A stretch of 48,349 nt of DNA from Bacteroidota bacterium (GTDB lineage Bacteria > Bacteroidota > Bacteroidia > B-17B0 > Aurantibacillaceae), in the NCBI GenBank assembly GCA_900299295.1, contig OMJH01000081.1, positions 1 through 48,349 of the forward strand, in the 5' to 3' direction. The position numbers were made by a program, and so were the translations under genes. Of the stretch, positions 13,089 to 48,261 are shown piece after piece; position 1 is the stretch's first letter; each line of letters opens with the position of its first letter. The notes beneath the pieces are model-generated. The model saw only the letters and a list, made by a program, of their open reading frames with translations. It did no database searches and was not told where the DNA came from.

Positions 13089-13102
13089 AATAAAATAAAA
13101 AA

Positions 13103-13197
13103 GGGTAAGCTACTTTCATCGCACCGCTCAACCACTTGCCCTTGCTTTGTTCCCAACCTGGGGGATTCAGCAGGAGCTGGTCGTGAAAGACTTACCC
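13103..13197 (-). ncRNA. ffs: Signal recognition particle RNA (small bacterial 4.5S type)
   Basis: On the minus strand the 95-nt transcript opens GGGTAAG and closes CTTACCC, which pair, and it then runs into T6 as a built-in terminator. The apical part has the SRP signature: CCCAGGTT, GGGAAC (a GGAA tetraloop closed by G-C) and AAAGCAAGGG, corresponding to the AGGU...GGAA...AGCA core bound by the Ffh M domain. The segment GTGGTTGAGCGGTGCGATG is also usual in Bacteroidota forms. It is convergent with phaC, 14 bases away. Confidence 0.9.
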
Positions 13198-13201
13198 AAT
13201 G

Positions 13202-13209
13202 CAAAAGTA
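13202..13209 (-). promoter_or_regulatory. -7 box of the SRP RNA promoter
   Basis: TACTTTTG on the minus strand fits TAnnTTTG and ends 4 bases before the paired GGGTAAG start of the RNA. A CTG (minus strand 13231..13229) sits at the -33 position with a 19-bp spacer, one mismatch from TTG. This fixes the RNA strand. Confidence 0.65.
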
Positions 13210-13294: not shown

Positions 13295-14260
13295 ATGCAC
13301 AGTTTACAAGTATCTATTGTAATACCACTTCTTAACGAAGAAGAATCACTTCCGGAGTTACATGACTGGATTGTACGCGTAATGAACGAAAATAATTACA
13401 CTTATGAAATTATTTTCATTGATGACGGTTCAAAAGATAAATCTTGGAATATCATTCAACAGCTTTCTGAAAAAAATTCCTGCGTTAAAGGAATAAAATT
13501 CAGGAGGAATTACGGTAAAAGTGCGGCTCTTCACCTTGGATTTGAGGCTATTTGTGGTGAGGTAGTGATTACCATGGACGCCGATTTGCAGGATAGTCCG
13601 GATGAAATTCCACAACTCGTACAAATGATTACAATTGAAGGTTATGACCTGGTGAGCGGATGGAAAAAGAAACGATATGATCCAATAAGTAAAACCATTC
13701 CAACTAAATTATTTAATTGGGCAACCCGAAAAATGAGTGGAATTGAGTTACATGATTTTAATTGCGGGTTAAAAGCTTATAAAATTGAATTGGTAAAAAG
13801 CATTGAAGTTTACGGTGAAATGCACAGATATATTCCGGTAATTGCGAAATGGGCAGGGTTTGGAAATATTGGCGAGAAAGAAGTTATACACCGCGAACGT
13901 AAATACGGATATTCAAAATTTGGTTTGGAACGTTTTGTAAACGGATTTCTGGATTTACTTACTATAACCTTTGTTTCTAAATTCGGAAAACGACCCATGC
14001 ATTTTTTTGGATTTTGGGGAACAATTATGTTTTTTATTGGTTTATGCTCAGTTGCAGGAATCGGAGTATCAAAATTAATTGCTATCAGCAACAACCAGCG
14101 AGCTCCATTAATAACAAGTAACCCATGGTTTTACATTGCCCTAACTACTATGGTTTTGGGAACACTGCTGTTTCTTTCCGGATTTATTGCTGAACTCATT
14201 TTAAGAAACTCGATGGTAAGAAATCAATACCTCCTCGAAAAGAAAATTAATCTTCATTGA
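13295..14260 (+). CDS. Family 2 glycosyltransferase, DPM1/GtrB-like, membrane-bound
   Basis: The 321-residue protein transfers a sugar from a nucleotide donor, most likely to polyprenyl phosphate. The GT-A domain (1-225) has VSIVIPLLNEEESLPEL, IDDGSKDKSW and the metal-binding DADLQDSPDEI (95-105). GLKAYK and RERKYGYSKFG are typical of the polyprenyl-phosphate transferase group. Two membrane segments follow (about 232-256 and 275-300). It overlaps the next ORF by TTGA. Sugar and acceptor cannot be determined; lipopolysaccharide or glycoprotein modification are both possible. It has no flippase neighbour. Confidence 0.9.
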   Translation: MHSLQVSIVIPLLNEEESLPELHDWIVRVMNENNYTYEIIFIDDGSKDKSWNIIQQLSEKNSCVKGIKFRRNYGKSAALHLGFEAICGEVVITMDADLQDSPDEIPQLVQMITIEGYDLVSGWKKKRYDPISKTIPTKLFNWATRKMSGIELHDFNCGLKAYKIELVKSIEVYGEMHRYIPVIAKWAGFGNIGEKEVIHRERKYGYSKFGLERFVNGFLDLLTITFVSKFGKRPMHFFGFWGTIMFFIGLCSVAGIGVSKLIAISNNQRAPLITSNPWFYIALTTMVLGTLLFLSGFIAELILRNSMVRNQYLLEKKINLH

Positions 14261-17022
14261 ATAGGTTTCTCAACTCAATAATCAGAAGCTTTTTCGTTTT
14301 CATTTTCACCATTGGTGTTTTAAGATGCAGTTTTGCCCAGATTTACAATCACTTTCCAATTGAAAATTATACCCCGAAACAATATGGTCCTACCCAAAGT
14401 GCACAAAACTGGTGCGTAACACAATCGAAGGAAGGATTGATGTATTTTGGTAATTCCAATGGAATAGTGGAATATGATGGACGAAATTGGAATTTCATTC
14501 AGGTATTAAATGGCCGTTATGTTTTTTCTTTGGCCACAGACAACACAAATATCCTGTATGCCGGAACACAGGGTAATTTTGGATATTTCGCAAAAAGCCG
14601 AACTGGAAAATTAAAGTATATATCCTTATCCGATTCACTTTTACCACCAGAAAAAAGGTTGTTCACCGCCGTGTGGAGAATTTTTGTGAAAGAAGATGAG
14701 ATTTATTTTCAAACGGAAGAAGCTATTTTTATTTACAACAAAAAAACTATTTCTGTTATAAAACCTGAAAAAAGTTTTCATCTTGCAATGCAGGTTAACG
14801 GAGACATCTATGCAAGAGAAAGAGGAGTCGGTTTGATTAAAATTGAAAGGAATCAAAAAAAAATAATCAACGCATCACCAATCGCTTCCTCATATGGATT
14901 ATTCGGTTTATTGAATGATAATCAAGACAAGGAAAGGCAGATATTGATAACCCAGGAACTTGGTTTATTTTGGTTATACAAAAACGGTACAATTGAAGAA
15001 ATTCCTGGGCAAGACAAAAAAATTCTAATTGATTCAAAAATATTGGGAGGCGTTAAGCTACCCGGAAATCGTTTTGCGTTAAACACGGAGTTGAATGGAA
15101 CAATTATAATAGATCACCATGGTAAAATAATTCACTTTCTTAACTCTGAGATAAATATCCAAAACAATACCGTCATAGCGCAATACCTTGACAAAATAGG
15201 AAATCTATGGCTTTGTCTTAATAAAGGAATTACCAAAGTAGCATTACATTCACCACTACAGTTTTTTGGCCCTTCAGATGGGTTAAGCGGTAATATATAC
15301 GGTTCAACAATTTATGGAAATTCCATCTATGTAGCTTCATCCGATGGACTTTTCAGTAAAAAAAATGCAAAAGCGAAGTTTTCCGCAGTTAAGGAAATTC
15401 CTTTTTCTAGAAGGCAAGTAATGAATTACGAAAACCAGCTACTGATTGCAAGCGAAGGTGGATTGTTTCTTTTGGACGGACAAAAAGTAAAAAAAATAAT
15501 TGATGGAAGTTTTAATGCCCTCCGATATTCGGAATCTGACCGAAAAATTATTGCAGCAACGAAACATGATATTTTCATATTAAATCAAAACACGAAAGAG
15601 GACTACCATTTAAAAGTAACAAGCGATGAAATTTTTCAAATTGCAGAGGGAAAAACAAAAACGGATAGTAAAAATTATATTTGGTTAACCACTCTGAGTG
15701 GCGGAGTTTATGTAATTGACCTAAATACTATTCCTGTCCGCTTAAACGACTTAAGTTTTTCAGGAGGTCTTCCGGCAGAATGGTTATATCCTTTCTCATT
15801 CAATCAAACTATTTTTCTCGGATGCAATTACGGAATTCTTTCCCCTAAGGGAAAAAGTTTTGACTCTACCTTAATCTTTGAAGACGCAGGTATTTTAAAT
15901 ACCGAAATCAATGAAAGTTTTTCTTTCTATACACAAACTATAAATGATAAAAAATATTTTATCAAAGAAAACCATATTCATTATCTTCCTGCAATTACCA
16001 AGGCAAACTCAATCCCTGTTCCGTTTAATCCAATTGAACTAGGTAAAATACATCACCTGTATTCCAGTTCAAACCAACTGCTGATTTCTGGTGATGACGG
16101 GCTCGTTGCTTACAATGAAAACGATTCGTTTAACTACAAGGCAGGATTCAATTTAATTTTAAGAAATATCAGCATTAAAAATGATTCAACGGAATACATT
16201 TCAGATAATTCGAATGAGTTAAAAATCAACTCGCCATTTAAATACAGCCAGAACAGTATACAGGTTGTTTTTGCTGCTGATTACTATTATAAAGAGGATA
16301 AACTGGAATTTTTTGCCCGGCTTGCAGGACCATTAACCGATTCCGTTAACTGGAATTCAATACCTGAATTTGAATTCAACAATTTAGCGGAAGGAACCTA
16401 TACACTGACCGCAACCGCAAAAAACATTTTTGAAAAAACATGTGCTGATTGTACTGGTCACGGTGTGCCCGGAGGTTTTATGAGTATGGTATGTTCCGAT
16501 AAACTCAATGAGGCGGTGATGCATCACCAACATCCCGGCGAAATATTGAAATTTACCAACCGTGCGTTAAAAAAATCGCTCCGTCAAGAAGGCAGTACCG
16601 ACGCAACAAAAGACGGAAAGGAAATTGCCCTGGTCAAAATCAATACTCAAACAAAAAAATTATACTACTCCGGTGCCAACCGTTTTTTATGGATCATCAG
16701 AAAAAATACAAATGAGGTTACCGACATAAAACCCACAAAAACAGGAATCGGCGGAACAACCGAAGATAGTCAAGAATTCTTTTGTCATGAATTCAGCATG
16801 GAATCCGGAGACTGGATCTTTCTTTCTAGTGACGGATTCGGAGATCAGTTTGGGGGAGAAAAATTAAAAAAACTTACCACCAAACGTTTCAAAGAAATTT
16901 TAATCAAATCATCGCATTTATCTATAGAAGAACAACGTAGTTTTCTAAAAGATTTTTTTGAAAAATGGAAAGGAGCTCAGGAACAAGTTGATGATATTTT
17001 AGTAATCGGAACAAAATTTTAG
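14257..17022 (+). CDS. Two-component-propeller / SpoIIE-type protein with an apparent internal deletion
   Basis: The 921-residue protein has a signal peptide (1-27), a long beta-propeller of the Reg_prop type (about 45-570), and a Y_Y_Y-like beta-sandwich (about 655-725). At residues 728/729 (16440/16441) the sandwich text LAEGTYTLTATAKNIFEKT runs straight into ADCTGHGVPGGFMSMV, the middle of a SpoIIE/PP2C domain. Family members I know have between these points the rest of the sandwich, a transmembrane helix, a coiled coil and the first half of the phosphatase with its SGDFYW metal motif. The C-terminal half keeps DGFGDQFGG and QVDDILVIG. Without a membrane segment, the signal peptide would export the phosphatase fragment. 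It starts with TTG overlapping the glycosyltransferase stop. Likely a non-functional or repurposed remnant. Confidence 0.85.
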   Translation: MNRFLNSIIRSFFVFIFTIGVLRCSFAQIYNHFPIENYTPKQYGPTQSAQNWCVTQSKEGLMYFGNSNGIVEYDGRNWNFIQVLNGRYVFSLATDNTNILYAGTQGNFGYFAKSRTGKLKYISLSDSLLPPEKRLFTAVWRIFVKEDEIYFQTEEAIFIYNKKTISVIKPEKSFHLAMQVNGDIYARERGVGLIKIERNQKKIINASPIASSYGLFGLLNDNQDKERQILITQELGLFWLYKNGTIEEIPGQDKKILIDSKILGGVKLPGNRFALNTELNGTIIIDHHGKIIHFLNSEINIQNNTVIAQYLDKIGNLWLCLNKGITKVALHSPLQFFGPSDGLSGNIYGSTIYGNSIYVASSDGLFSKKNAKAKFSAVKEIPFSRRQVMNYENQLLIASEGGLFLLDGQKVKKIIDGSFNALRYSESDRKIIAATKHDIFILNQNTKEDYHLKVTSDEIFQIAEGKTKTDSKNYIWLTTLSGGVYVIDLNTIPVRLNDLSFSGGLPAEWLYPFSFNQTIFLGCNYGILSPKGKSFDSTLIFEDAGILNTEINESFSFYTQTINDKKYFIKENHIHYLPAITKANSIPVPFNPIELGKIHHLYSSSNQLLISGDDGLVAYNENDSFNYKAGFNLILRNISIKNDSTEYISDNSNELKINSPFKYSQNSIQVVFAADYYYKEDKLEFFARLAGPLTDSVNWNSIPEFEFNNLAEGTYTLTATAKNIFEKTCADCTGHGVPGGFMSMVCSDKLNEAVMHHQHPGEILKFTNRALKKSLRQEGSTDATKDGKEIALVKINTQTKKLYYSGANRFLWIIRKNTNEVTDIKPTKTGIGGTTEDSQEFFCHEFSMESGDWIFLSSDGFGDQFGGEKLKKLTTKRFKEILIKSSHLSIEEQRSFLKDFFEKWKGAQEQVDDILVIGTKF

Positions 17023-45974: not shown

Positions 45975-46373
45975 CTAGGATAAAACAAACGAAAATTCCT
46001 TTACGGAATGCAAAGACATCGGAACACCTGATATTTCCTGAAAAAGCTCACCTTGATTTTGCAAATCAGGATCATCCTCCTCATAAAACCAATTTACATG
46101 AATAGAATTTCCCGATTCGTGTATTTCATGAAATTTTTTAAAAATATCCAAAATCAACTTTGACGAACTCGTGTTAAAATACTCCAGACTTACATTAACA
46201 ATCGTGTTTTTAGCCGGAGATGATTTGTATTCATCAATCCATTCCAAAACCGGTGAATAAAAATCGATCGTATTCTCCGGTAATGAGCGTCCAAAAATTT
46301 CAAATACTCCTGAATCAGGATTAAAATCAATTGTTGGGAATTTTAAATTTCCCTTTACAAGCATTTTTTCCAT
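45975..46373 (-). CDS. SiaC-family regulatory phosphoprotein (DUF1987)
   Basis: The 132-residue protein matches SiaC (DUF1987): TIDFNPDSGVFEIFGRSLPE, SPVLEWIDEYK, and YFNTSSSKLILDIF. Thr68 in the NTSSS motif falls at the same residue number as the threonine phosphorylated in Pseudomonas SiaC, which controls a diguanylate cyclase through the kinase SiaB and the PP2C phosphatase SiaA. Here it sits 46 bases after a membrane protein with a degenerate SpoIIE/PP2C domain and 2 bases before the rRNA methyltransferase gene. No SiaB kinase or diguanylate cyclase is present. Confidence 0.9.
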   Translation of the reverse strand: MEKMLVKGNLKFPTIDFNPDSGVFEIFGRSLPENTIDFYSPVLEWIDEYKSSPAKNTIVNVSLEYFNTSSSKLILDIFKKFHEIHESGNSIHVNWFYEEDDPDLQNQGELFQEISGVPMSLHSVKEFSFVLS

Positions 46374-46419
46374 AAATGAAAATTGAATTACTAAAATACA
46401 ATATAATTTAATAATACAA

Positions 46420-48261
46420 TTAAATTACCGGGATTTTAACCCATACCCCAGTTATATCTTTGATACTCTGAAGCTGCTCATCTATATCCGTATTTGGGTC
46501 TGTTACTATTTCAGTCAAAATTCGCGCAGCGGTTTCATTGCCATTAGTAGAAATTCCGATACGGGAAGTTGCCGATAAAATAGATGAACTTATTGATTGA
46601 GTTATTTGACTTCCTTTTTTACCGTCGAAAATAAATAACGGATTGCCATGAAACGAAAATTCGATAGTGCGATTTTCGCGATTCAATTTTAATATTGAAA
46701 AATTAACCTCCGGAAAATTAGCCATTTTAATTTGAAGCAAAAAACCATCTCGTATTCTTTCTATCGACCGATTTTTCTTATCTGACATCACAGTTATAGC
46801 TATTTGTTGCAGCCAAAGATTATCAAGCGCCGATTCTAAGTAATTATTTGTTACAGCCCCAAACAAAATGAAAATTTCCGAAGACTCACCCACTCCGCTT
46901 AATTCAGCGTCCCCTTTCGCAGCAAACATTTTTCCTGGTTTGAGCAAACGTAATTCCGAACATGCAAAAAAATGATAATATAACCCATTAAGGGCTAAAG
47001 CCTGAAAAGTTGCCTCAGGATACAATCGCTTAAACATACCTTCAGAATCGTGATATACCGTCTGCAAGTCGTTCAGTCGTTTCAATAAACCTGATACATC
47101 TTGTTTTGATTGTTCGATTAATTCGTTTAATGCCTTTATTTTACTCTTTAAAACTGCACCTTCCTTTTCATTTTGCAGATTATACTTAATTAATTCATCC
47201 GAACTTGTAACAAACTCCGTAATTTGTTCTTGCAGTTCCTCAATTTCCAACATTAATTTTTTCTCCGAATCAGCTTTCACGCCTAACCTTTTACGAAAAC
47301 GCATGGAACGGAAAAAATAAAACGCAAAAAAGAAAATGAAAATAAAAACTAGTAGCAATAAAAATAACCTTCGCGTAAATCCCGCCTGCTCAATTTTGCT
47401 TATCTCTGATTTATTTTGATTTAATAATTCATTCAAACTTTTCTGTTGGGCCAAATCAGCAGATTTCCGTATAATTTCAATAGCTTTTAAACGTGCACTC
47501 TTCAATTCATTTTCTGATTTTAATTCTAAGGAATCCAAATCCGCTTTTAACCAAGAAACCATTCGTGCGTCATGAACCGATTCACATAGAGCCATAAAAA
47601 TACCCCTCGATTTCACCTGAATTTCTAAATCACCAATTGAATCCGCAAGATGAACGGCATCTCTCAAATAACCATAACTGATTGAATTAAAGCCTAAGCG
47701 ATGTGCTGTTTCAGCAAGAGCCAGGCTGGTCTCAAATTGAAGTTGAACAAAGCCGTTTTGTTTTGCCGTTAAGAATATTTTCTCAAATTCTTTAAAAACA
47801 ATTAATGATGGCTTTTCTAATTTTTTTTGCCAAAAAACAGAATAGAAATACCACAAACTTGAAGTATCTGTCAAATCAACATGAATAAATATTTCAATTG
47901 TTTTCCTGATTGAAATAGTATCCGATTTCAGATCGTTCAGTTCAAGAACCTTTTGAAACGATTGAAAAAAAAGTTCCGTGCTTTTTGTTTTATAAGTATT
48001 TAAAAAAACTGAATTGAAATTCGATAGGGCAGAATCGACTTGACCTGTTTTCATGTAGATTATACCTTTCTGAAACAGTAATGAATTCATCGTTTCCGGT
48101 GAATTCGTTTGATCTTTAATTTTAAAATTCAAAATCTGCTTAGCAGAAGCTTCATCCTCAAGAATAAGATATGCGTTAATTAATGAATCGTTTAAAATTT
48201 GGGATTTCAGGAAATTTCCTGTAAACAAATTAAAAGTGAGGATTAAAAATAAATATCGCAT
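46420..48261 (-). CDS. TPR-TM-coiled-coil protein with a degenerate SpoIIE/PP2C-like C-terminus
   Basis: The 613-residue protein has a signal peptide (1-20), TPR-like helical repeats (about 25-250; FQKGIIYMKTGQVDSALSNF, ETSLALAETAHRLGF), a helix, one membrane segment (about 297-318), a coiled coil (about 325-415), and a C-terminal domain (about 420-613). The C-terminus resembles SpoIIE in VNFSILKLNRENRTIEFSFHGNP and the final IKDITGVWVKI, but the metal motifs are lost: no SGDFYW block, FGAVTNNYLESALD where DCTGHG is expected, and only one Asp where active members have two. It looks like a pseudophosphatase. The sensing N-terminus with TPR inside the periplasm and the neighbour SiaC suggest a regulatory partner. 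Confidence 0.8.
   Translation of the reverse strand: MRYLFLILTFNLFTGNFLKSQILNDSLINAYLILEDEASAKQILNFKIKDQTNSPETMNSLLFQKGIIYMKTGQVDSALSNFNSVFLNTYKTKSTELFFQSFQKVLELNDLKSDTISIRKTIEIFIHVDLTDTSSLWYFYSVFWQKKLEKPSLIVFKEFEKIFLTAKQNGFVQLQFETSLALAETAHRLGFNSISYGYLRDAVHLADSIGDLEIQVKSRGIFMALCESVHDARMVSWLKADLDSLELKSENELKSARLKAIEIIRKSADLAQQKSLNELLNQNKSEISKIEQAGFTRRLFLLLLVFIFIFFFAFYFFRSMRFRKRLGVKADSEKKLMLEIEELQEQITEFVTSSDELIKYNLQNEKEGAVLKSKIKALNELIEQSKQDVSGLLKRLNDLQTVYHDSEGMFKRLYPEATFQALALNGLYYHFFACSELRLLKPGKMFAAKGDAELSGVGESSEIFILFGAVTNNYLESALDNLWLQQIAITVMSDKKNRSIERIRDGFLLQIKMANFPEVNFSILKLNRENRTIEFSFHGNPLFIFDGKKGSQITQSISSSILSATSRIGISTNGNETAARILTEIVTDPNTDIDEQLQSIKDITGVWVKIPVI

Follow-up and report, generated by a model that had tools for sequence, protein, structure and literature searches.

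A SiaC gene paired with a degenerate, membrane-bound SpoIIE/PP2C-type protein in a Bacteroidota genome: a possible variant of the Sia switch

In Pseudomonas aeruginosa, SiaC is phosphorylated at Thr68 by SiaB and dephosphorylated at the same residue by SiaA, and the phosphorylated form is blocked from binding SiaD (PMC7647112, PMC8457831). Thr68 is also the residue through which SiaC contacts the parallel stalk helices of SiaD (PMC8457831). The active site of SiaA includes D457, D474, G477, D600, G601 and D653, and in a docking model the alpha5-alpha6 loop, containing F612, was placed on a hydrophobic pocket of SiaC (PMC7647112). A related domain has lost its activity in E. coli RssB, which has a PPM domain truncated at the C-terminus and serves as an adaptor for sigma-S; the RssB of P. 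aeruginosa, in contrast, has remained enzymatically active. Signals in RsbU and RssB travel through the linker and the first PPM helices (PMC12143880, PMC7226468). The open literature on SiaC outside Pseudomonas is almost nil, with DUF1987 mentioned in one paper and DUF6272 in none, nor did it yield a pseudophosphatase belonging to any Sia or DUF1987 system.

The DNA analysed here (the window) is a stretch of 48,349 nucleotides, contig OMJH01000081.1 of a Bacteroidota genome. Near the contig end, a sequence-only reading of the window had placed a SiaC gene beside a gene for a membrane protein of 613 amino acids. Both open reading frames were recovered, the SiaC gene lying downstream after a gap of 46 bp, and their features are collected in Table 1.

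Table 1. Features of the SiaC gene and its neighbour (window positions).
Feature	Position	Strand	Evidence
SiaC (DUF1987), 132 aa	45975..46373	(-)	PF09345; match to 6kko/6k4f; 69% identity to congener SiaC
SiaC Thr68 codon	46170..46172	(-)	NTSSS, conserved column; phospho-site in P. aeruginosa SiaC (PMC7647112, PMC8457831)
Membrane pseudophosphatase of 613 aa, orthologous to the TPR-TM-SpoIIE phosphatase of the congener	46420..48261	(-)	
N-terminal region, residues 1-290: start resembling a signal peptide and a helical, presumably TPR-like periplasmic part	47392..48261	(-)	Sequence; weak TPR matches in congener orthologue only
Transmembrane segment, about residues 299-318	47308..47367	(-)	Hydropathy >1.6 in windows starting at 292-304
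Coiled-coil linker, residues 330-413	47023..47274	(-)	Weak coiled-coil Pfam matches; aligned linker in congener
Degenerate SpoIIE/PP2C-derived domain, residues 414-613	46423..47022	(-)	Score 122 against congener domain; AF2 and Foldseek point to 6k4e
H430, at the position of SiaA metal ligand D457 (GDFYW motif)	46972..46974	(-)	Alignments including 6k4e
Insert ELRLLKPGKMF..KG.., 33-34 residues, residues 435-468	46858..46959	(-)	Common only to congener phosphatase
A469, at the position of SiaA metal ligand D474 (DCTGHG, here AVTNNY)	46855..46857	(-)	Alignment
Retained SpoIIE strand motif VNFSILKLNRENRTIEFSFHGNPLFIFDG, residues 519-547	46621..46707	(-)	HMM alignment
Shortened C-terminus: TDGYxDQFGG loop missing, QIDDV pair lost	46423..46620	(-)	Alignment

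The assignment of the smaller gene was straightforward. PF09345 matches it with 128 bits (cut-off 24.5) and an E-value of 1.5e-37, the NCBIfam SiaC model scores under its cut-off, and the only solved structures that match by sequence are the P. aeruginosa SiaC entries 6kko and 6k4f (E 3e-13). The threonine of NTSSS is residue 68, as the sequence-only reading had it, and it is conserved in 84% of approximately 180 SiaC sequences; 28 of the 34 strongly conserved columns are retained in all. SiaC is carried by nearly all sampled genomes of the family and by more than half of the genomes in the class sample.

The locus was compared with that of a congener, the metagenome-assembled genome (MAG) ES-bin-35 (public contig JACMLS010000436.1), which was the sole other genome of the genus compared. 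Its SiaC is 69% identical, the next best within the family being 54%, and between the two SiaC genes pN is 0.20 and pS 0.81, ie the protein is under strong constraint, with T68 kept. The congener gene lies directly downstream (93 bp) of a SpoIIE-family phosphatase of the same layout (L063:3-1538), in which the motifs SGDFYW, GDCTGHG, DGMD, TDGYADQFGG and QIDDV are complete, and whose only solved match by sequence is the PP2C domain of SiaA, 6k4e (E 1.8e-22). Alignment of the C-terminal domain of the 613-aa protein with this enzyme gave a score of 122 (P about 3e-11); the next best among the 47 SpoIIE domains of both genomes scored 57, and none of 2000 shuffles exceeded 58. A tblastn comparison of window and congener joined transmembrane segment, linker and domain in one match with an E-value of 4e-14. 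Because the score is far above those of the other SpoIIE domains, and because both proteins contain the same 33-residue insert, these alignments identify the 613-aa protein as an orthologue of a SpoIIE/SiaA-type phosphatase in which catalysis has been lost. Its descent from the SpoIIE/PP2C family (PF07228) follows from orthology to the congener enzyme. The earlier suspicion that the domain was a true pseudophosphatase derivative is thereby upheld, since the orthologue, beside an orthologous SiaC, is an intact SpoIIE/SiaA-like protein. The linkage with SiaC holds in the two genus members known, and the genes flanking the dyad differ between the two genomes, so that the dyad itself appears as the conserved unit.

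The 613-aa protein has a single strong hydrophobic segment, at approximately residues 292-322. Of the layout first described, the transmembrane segment and the coiled coil were confirmed, but TPRs were not detected in this protein; even in the congener orthologue the TPR matches are weak (E 0.006). No receiver domain was found by Pfam profile search.

The C-terminal domain is recognised as SpoIIE by none of the Pfam and NCBIfam models, and PF07228 in Pfam does not match even at E<=10. A local SpoIIE HMM and hhalign, run from the single sequence, gave weak results, the HMM matching one strand motif at residues 519-557, in which N520 occupies the position of an Asp in SiaA-type enzymes (SiaA D534). 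The loss of metal-binding motifs proposed previously proved real on alignment. In addition to the two substitutions in Table 1, the DG stretch that includes SiaA D600, D604 and the F612 loop is absent, the last Asp pair is gone, and the C-terminal end falls short of that of the congener's enzyme by about 37 residues. A frameshift or sequencing error masking the DG motif was ruled out, since the lost piece is absent from every frame. With three to four metal ligands gone, phosphatase activity of the 613-aa protein is, on the alignment, not credible. The F612 loop lies within the deleted stretch, which makes docking in the manner of SiaA doubtful; that mode of holding SiaC is probably gone, and the simplest form of the earlier idea, that the degenerate domain binds SiaC without dephosphorylating it and so acts as a sensor or scaffold, is weakened. 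AF2 prediction of the domain from the single sequence gave a meaningless model (pLDDT 33). With ten aligned relatives it gave a mixed alpha/beta model (pLDDT 55, pTM 0.59), towards which the alignment of active relatives is itself a bias. Foldseek placed the PP2C domain of SiaA, 6k4e, at the top for this model (probability 0.91, E 0.024), followed by other PP2C domains and RssB amid many weak proteasome matches. A PP2C fold for the remnant domain is thus weakly predicted.

The best-kept part of the domain, ahead of any catalytic motif, is the insert (consensus ELRxLxPGKMFxxKG), which sits between the first two metal-ligand strands. It is identical to the congener's at 17 of 33 positions, compared with 5 of 39 and 19 of 143 in the flanking stretches, and occurs as a single copy in each of the two genomes; none of the 30 best relatives of the congener enzyme across the class has it. 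Between window and congener, pN and pS are 0.30 and 0.80 in the insert and 0.61 and 0.75 in the rest of the domain; these counts take in both branches, and a recent loss would look milder. Synonymous sites are saturated between the two species (pS 0.75-0.81), and despite this the insert is, by these counts, under constraint at the protein level. That it is the best-kept part favours a role without catalysis for which the insert is important. Outside it divergence is near neutral, and much of the domain may be unconstrained or misaligned. The possibility that the insert is a dispersed palindromic repeat was ruled out by its single-copy occurrence in both genomes. In several active Bacteroidota SpoIIE proteins (L239, L252) the same loop, from GDFYW to DxTGHG, contains peptides like SLTPSLSPNGEGSR or PLPQTPSPPLLDKERGAGGEV, which resemble translated palindromic repeats, so this loop evidently tolerates insertions.

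The gene itself is intact and coding-like. Its 613 codons are free of stops, for which the chance is about 1.5e-19 in random sequence of the same composition; for the last 194 codons the corresponding chance is about 1e-6. Codon usage is coding-like in all 40-codon windows, including those in the degenerate part. With a domain derived from a phosphatase, no catalytic residues and a gene that has been kept, the protein is, by sequence, a pseudophosphatase. Complete motif loss together with the deletion speaks against a recent loss of catalysis. Since all metal sites are lost and the gene is still intact, the 613-aa protein probably signals without enzyme activity.

The window was said to lack siaB, which is correct for the window, but two DUF6272 (SiaB-like) genes are present elsewhere in the genome, one of them paired with another of its four SiaC genes. 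The genome also contains 17 SpoIIE domains. SiaC thus has a kinase and further phosphatases available in trans. Neither the window genome nor the congener yielded a GGDEF domain, so that a cyclase like SiaD would not be the output.

Among approximately 190 SiaC open reading frames the usual layout is DUF6272-SiaC. These Bacteroidota pairs contain the same SiaC family, and a SiaB-like kinase adjoins it instead of a phosphatase or pseudophosphatase. Outside the genus, SiaC in the neighbourhood survey adjoins DUF6272 and/or active phosphatases, which makes the SiaC-pseudophosphatase pair a lineage-specific variant. No PP2C remnant was found beside other SiaC genes at the 17 loci whose neighbours were read by eye. 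Every marker residue is present in 97 of 110 SpoIIE domain sequences (a partly redundant set from SiaC loci and the two genomes). Setting aside fragments truncated at contig ends, a few sequences in which a single marker differs and one with an internal deletion, the only other clearly degenerate SpoIIE in the survey is L130:729-1994, on the minus strand, with E, E, K, K and N in the catalytic columns in place of D, D, H, D and D. It is separated from a SiaB-SiaC pair by about 2.3 kb and has the order receiver, coiled coil, SpoIIE; because of this different layout it presumably represents a separate event, and the sequences suggest that pseudophosphatases near Sia genes probably arose at least twice. 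The record is labelled Rickettsiales bacterium NP5, and its genes look like those of Bacteroidota. The degenerate form described here is known from one sequence, in a MAG of 230 contigs; a second species with it was found neither in a pattern-limited scan of 85,000 genomes nor in the family sample or the class sample (345 genomes).

Our preferred reading, to which we give a probability of about one half, is that the 613-aa protein is a non-catalytic, signal-gated partner of SiaC, phosphorylation and dephosphorylation taking place in trans. The N-terminal region would receive a periplasmic signal, which would reach the remnant domain across the transmembrane segment and along the coiled-coil linker. 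This domain would hold or release SiaC at the membrane by way of the insert and/or the coiled coil, without itself dephosphorylating T68. SiaC would be phosphorylated by DUF6272 and dephosphorylated by one of the 17 other SpoIIE-domain proteins, both in trans, and the output would be something other than a SiaD-type diguanylate cyclase. The narrower formulation, a Sia-type switch in which a membrane pseudophosphatase gates SiaC by insert-mediated binding after a conversion like that of RssB, with no diguanylate cyclase output, is put forward more tentatively.

The gene could instead be a decaying relic whose phosphatase function has been lost and whose reading frame is drifting, SiaC being served in trans by other SpoIIE phosphatases. 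This would fit a genome of 2.8 Mb, smaller than the congener's 4.9 Mb, together with the disappearance of all catalytic motifs, the shortened C-terminal lobe and the fast divergence outside the insert. The 17 other SpoIIE domains could take over, and a second SpoIIE gene in the window, at 14257-17022, is also without part of its domain. A drifting frame sits badly, however, with the stop-free run of codons and the coding-like usage through the degenerate part, and with an insert that is conserved in protein sequence at saturated synonymous distance; transmembrane segment and coiled coil have been retained as well. We regard decay as unlikely, while taking it seriously. Less likely again is a repurposed remnant, which would keep a signalling role that no longer concerns SiaC, the gene order being a leftover. 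Deletion of the loop modelled as contacting SiaC and the loss of every catalytic feature would be consistent with this, as would the DUF6272 and SpoIIE proteins elsewhere that can serve SiaC; against it, the two genes have persisted as an operon-like pair on one strand, with 46 bp between them, while their flanks changed between the genomes, and SiaC itself is constrained.

Two further explanations deny the loss of catalysis or the phosphatase ancestry. A C-terminal domain without kinship to PP2C, in which a chance motif has been over-read, would agree with the missing Pfam SpoIIE match and the meaningless single-sequence AF2 model, but is very improbable: the syntenic phosphatase is matched specifically, at a score well beyond those of all other SpoIIE domains and of the shuffles, and the private insert is common to both proteins. 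Acidic residues left near the C-terminus (588, 592, 594 and 602) could be taken to mean that the protein is still a phosphatase using other ligands. The Asp pair that provides ligands in the N-terminal half is now His and Ala, however, and the DG loop is absent; we know of no PP2C that works with such replacements, and consider this the least credible of the explanations.

In terms of our preferred reading, that of a non-catalytic SiaC partner, the locus resembles SiaABCD in that a PP2C/SpoIIE-family protein is encoded with SiaC. It departs from SiaA (6k4e) in the absence of the metal ligands and of the DG/F612 loop and in the presence of the 33-residue insert, and from the SiaABCD gene set, with its diguanylate cyclase target, in having no siaB in the operon and no GGDEF protein detected in the genome. 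The congener phosphatase shares the SiaC neighbour, the layout and the private insert, and differs in its intact catalytic motifs. By analogy, the best precedent would be E. coli RssB as a pseudo-PPM adaptor: in both, activity and part of the C-terminal lobe are lost, a helical linker is kept, and a relative has an active homologue. RssB is nevertheless soluble, has a receiver domain and delivers sigma-S to ClpXP, whereas the 613-aa protein is membrane-bound and linked to SiaC; without a receiver domain it is not an adaptor of the strict RssB type (receiver plus pseudo-PPM, with ClpXP delivery). L130:729-1994 is similar in being a degenerate SpoIIE close to Sia genes, but it still matches Pfam SpoIIE (E 7.6e-9), lies on the opposite strand and, with its receiver domain, has an RssB-like layout. 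The parts of the present system are of known kinds; their combination is new. Two congeners with an active and a dead SiaC-linked phosphatase amount to a natural experiment on what survives the loss of catalysis, namely the membrane anchor, the coiled coil, the private insert and SiaC itself, and the pair marks the insert as a candidate site of contact with SiaC. If the preferred reading is correct, no pseudophosphatase of a DUF1987 switch would have been described before, as far as our search of the open literature reached, and the protein would represent a second route, besides RssB, from a PP2C enzyme to an adaptor.

Some minor observations were made along the way. In the propeller-type SpoIIE gene at 14257-17022 (plus strand) the sensor part runs straight into DCTGHG; compared to L113, about 132 amino acids are missing in frame, comprising the transmembrane segment, the linker and the first metal motif, GDFYW. 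The gap is either a real deletion, which would make this a second catalytically impaired SpoIIE in the window, or a collapsed assembly. At L108, L129, L141 and L216, SiaC occurs as a tandem of two or three genes. In the window genome an orphan DUF6272 gene (G000:C106:4489-4860, locus L032), with no adjoining SiaC, lies beside a deoxynucleoside-kinase-like gene. The window also contains, at 13099-13204 on the minus strand, a Bacteroidales small SRP RNA (RF04183, 99.8 bits).
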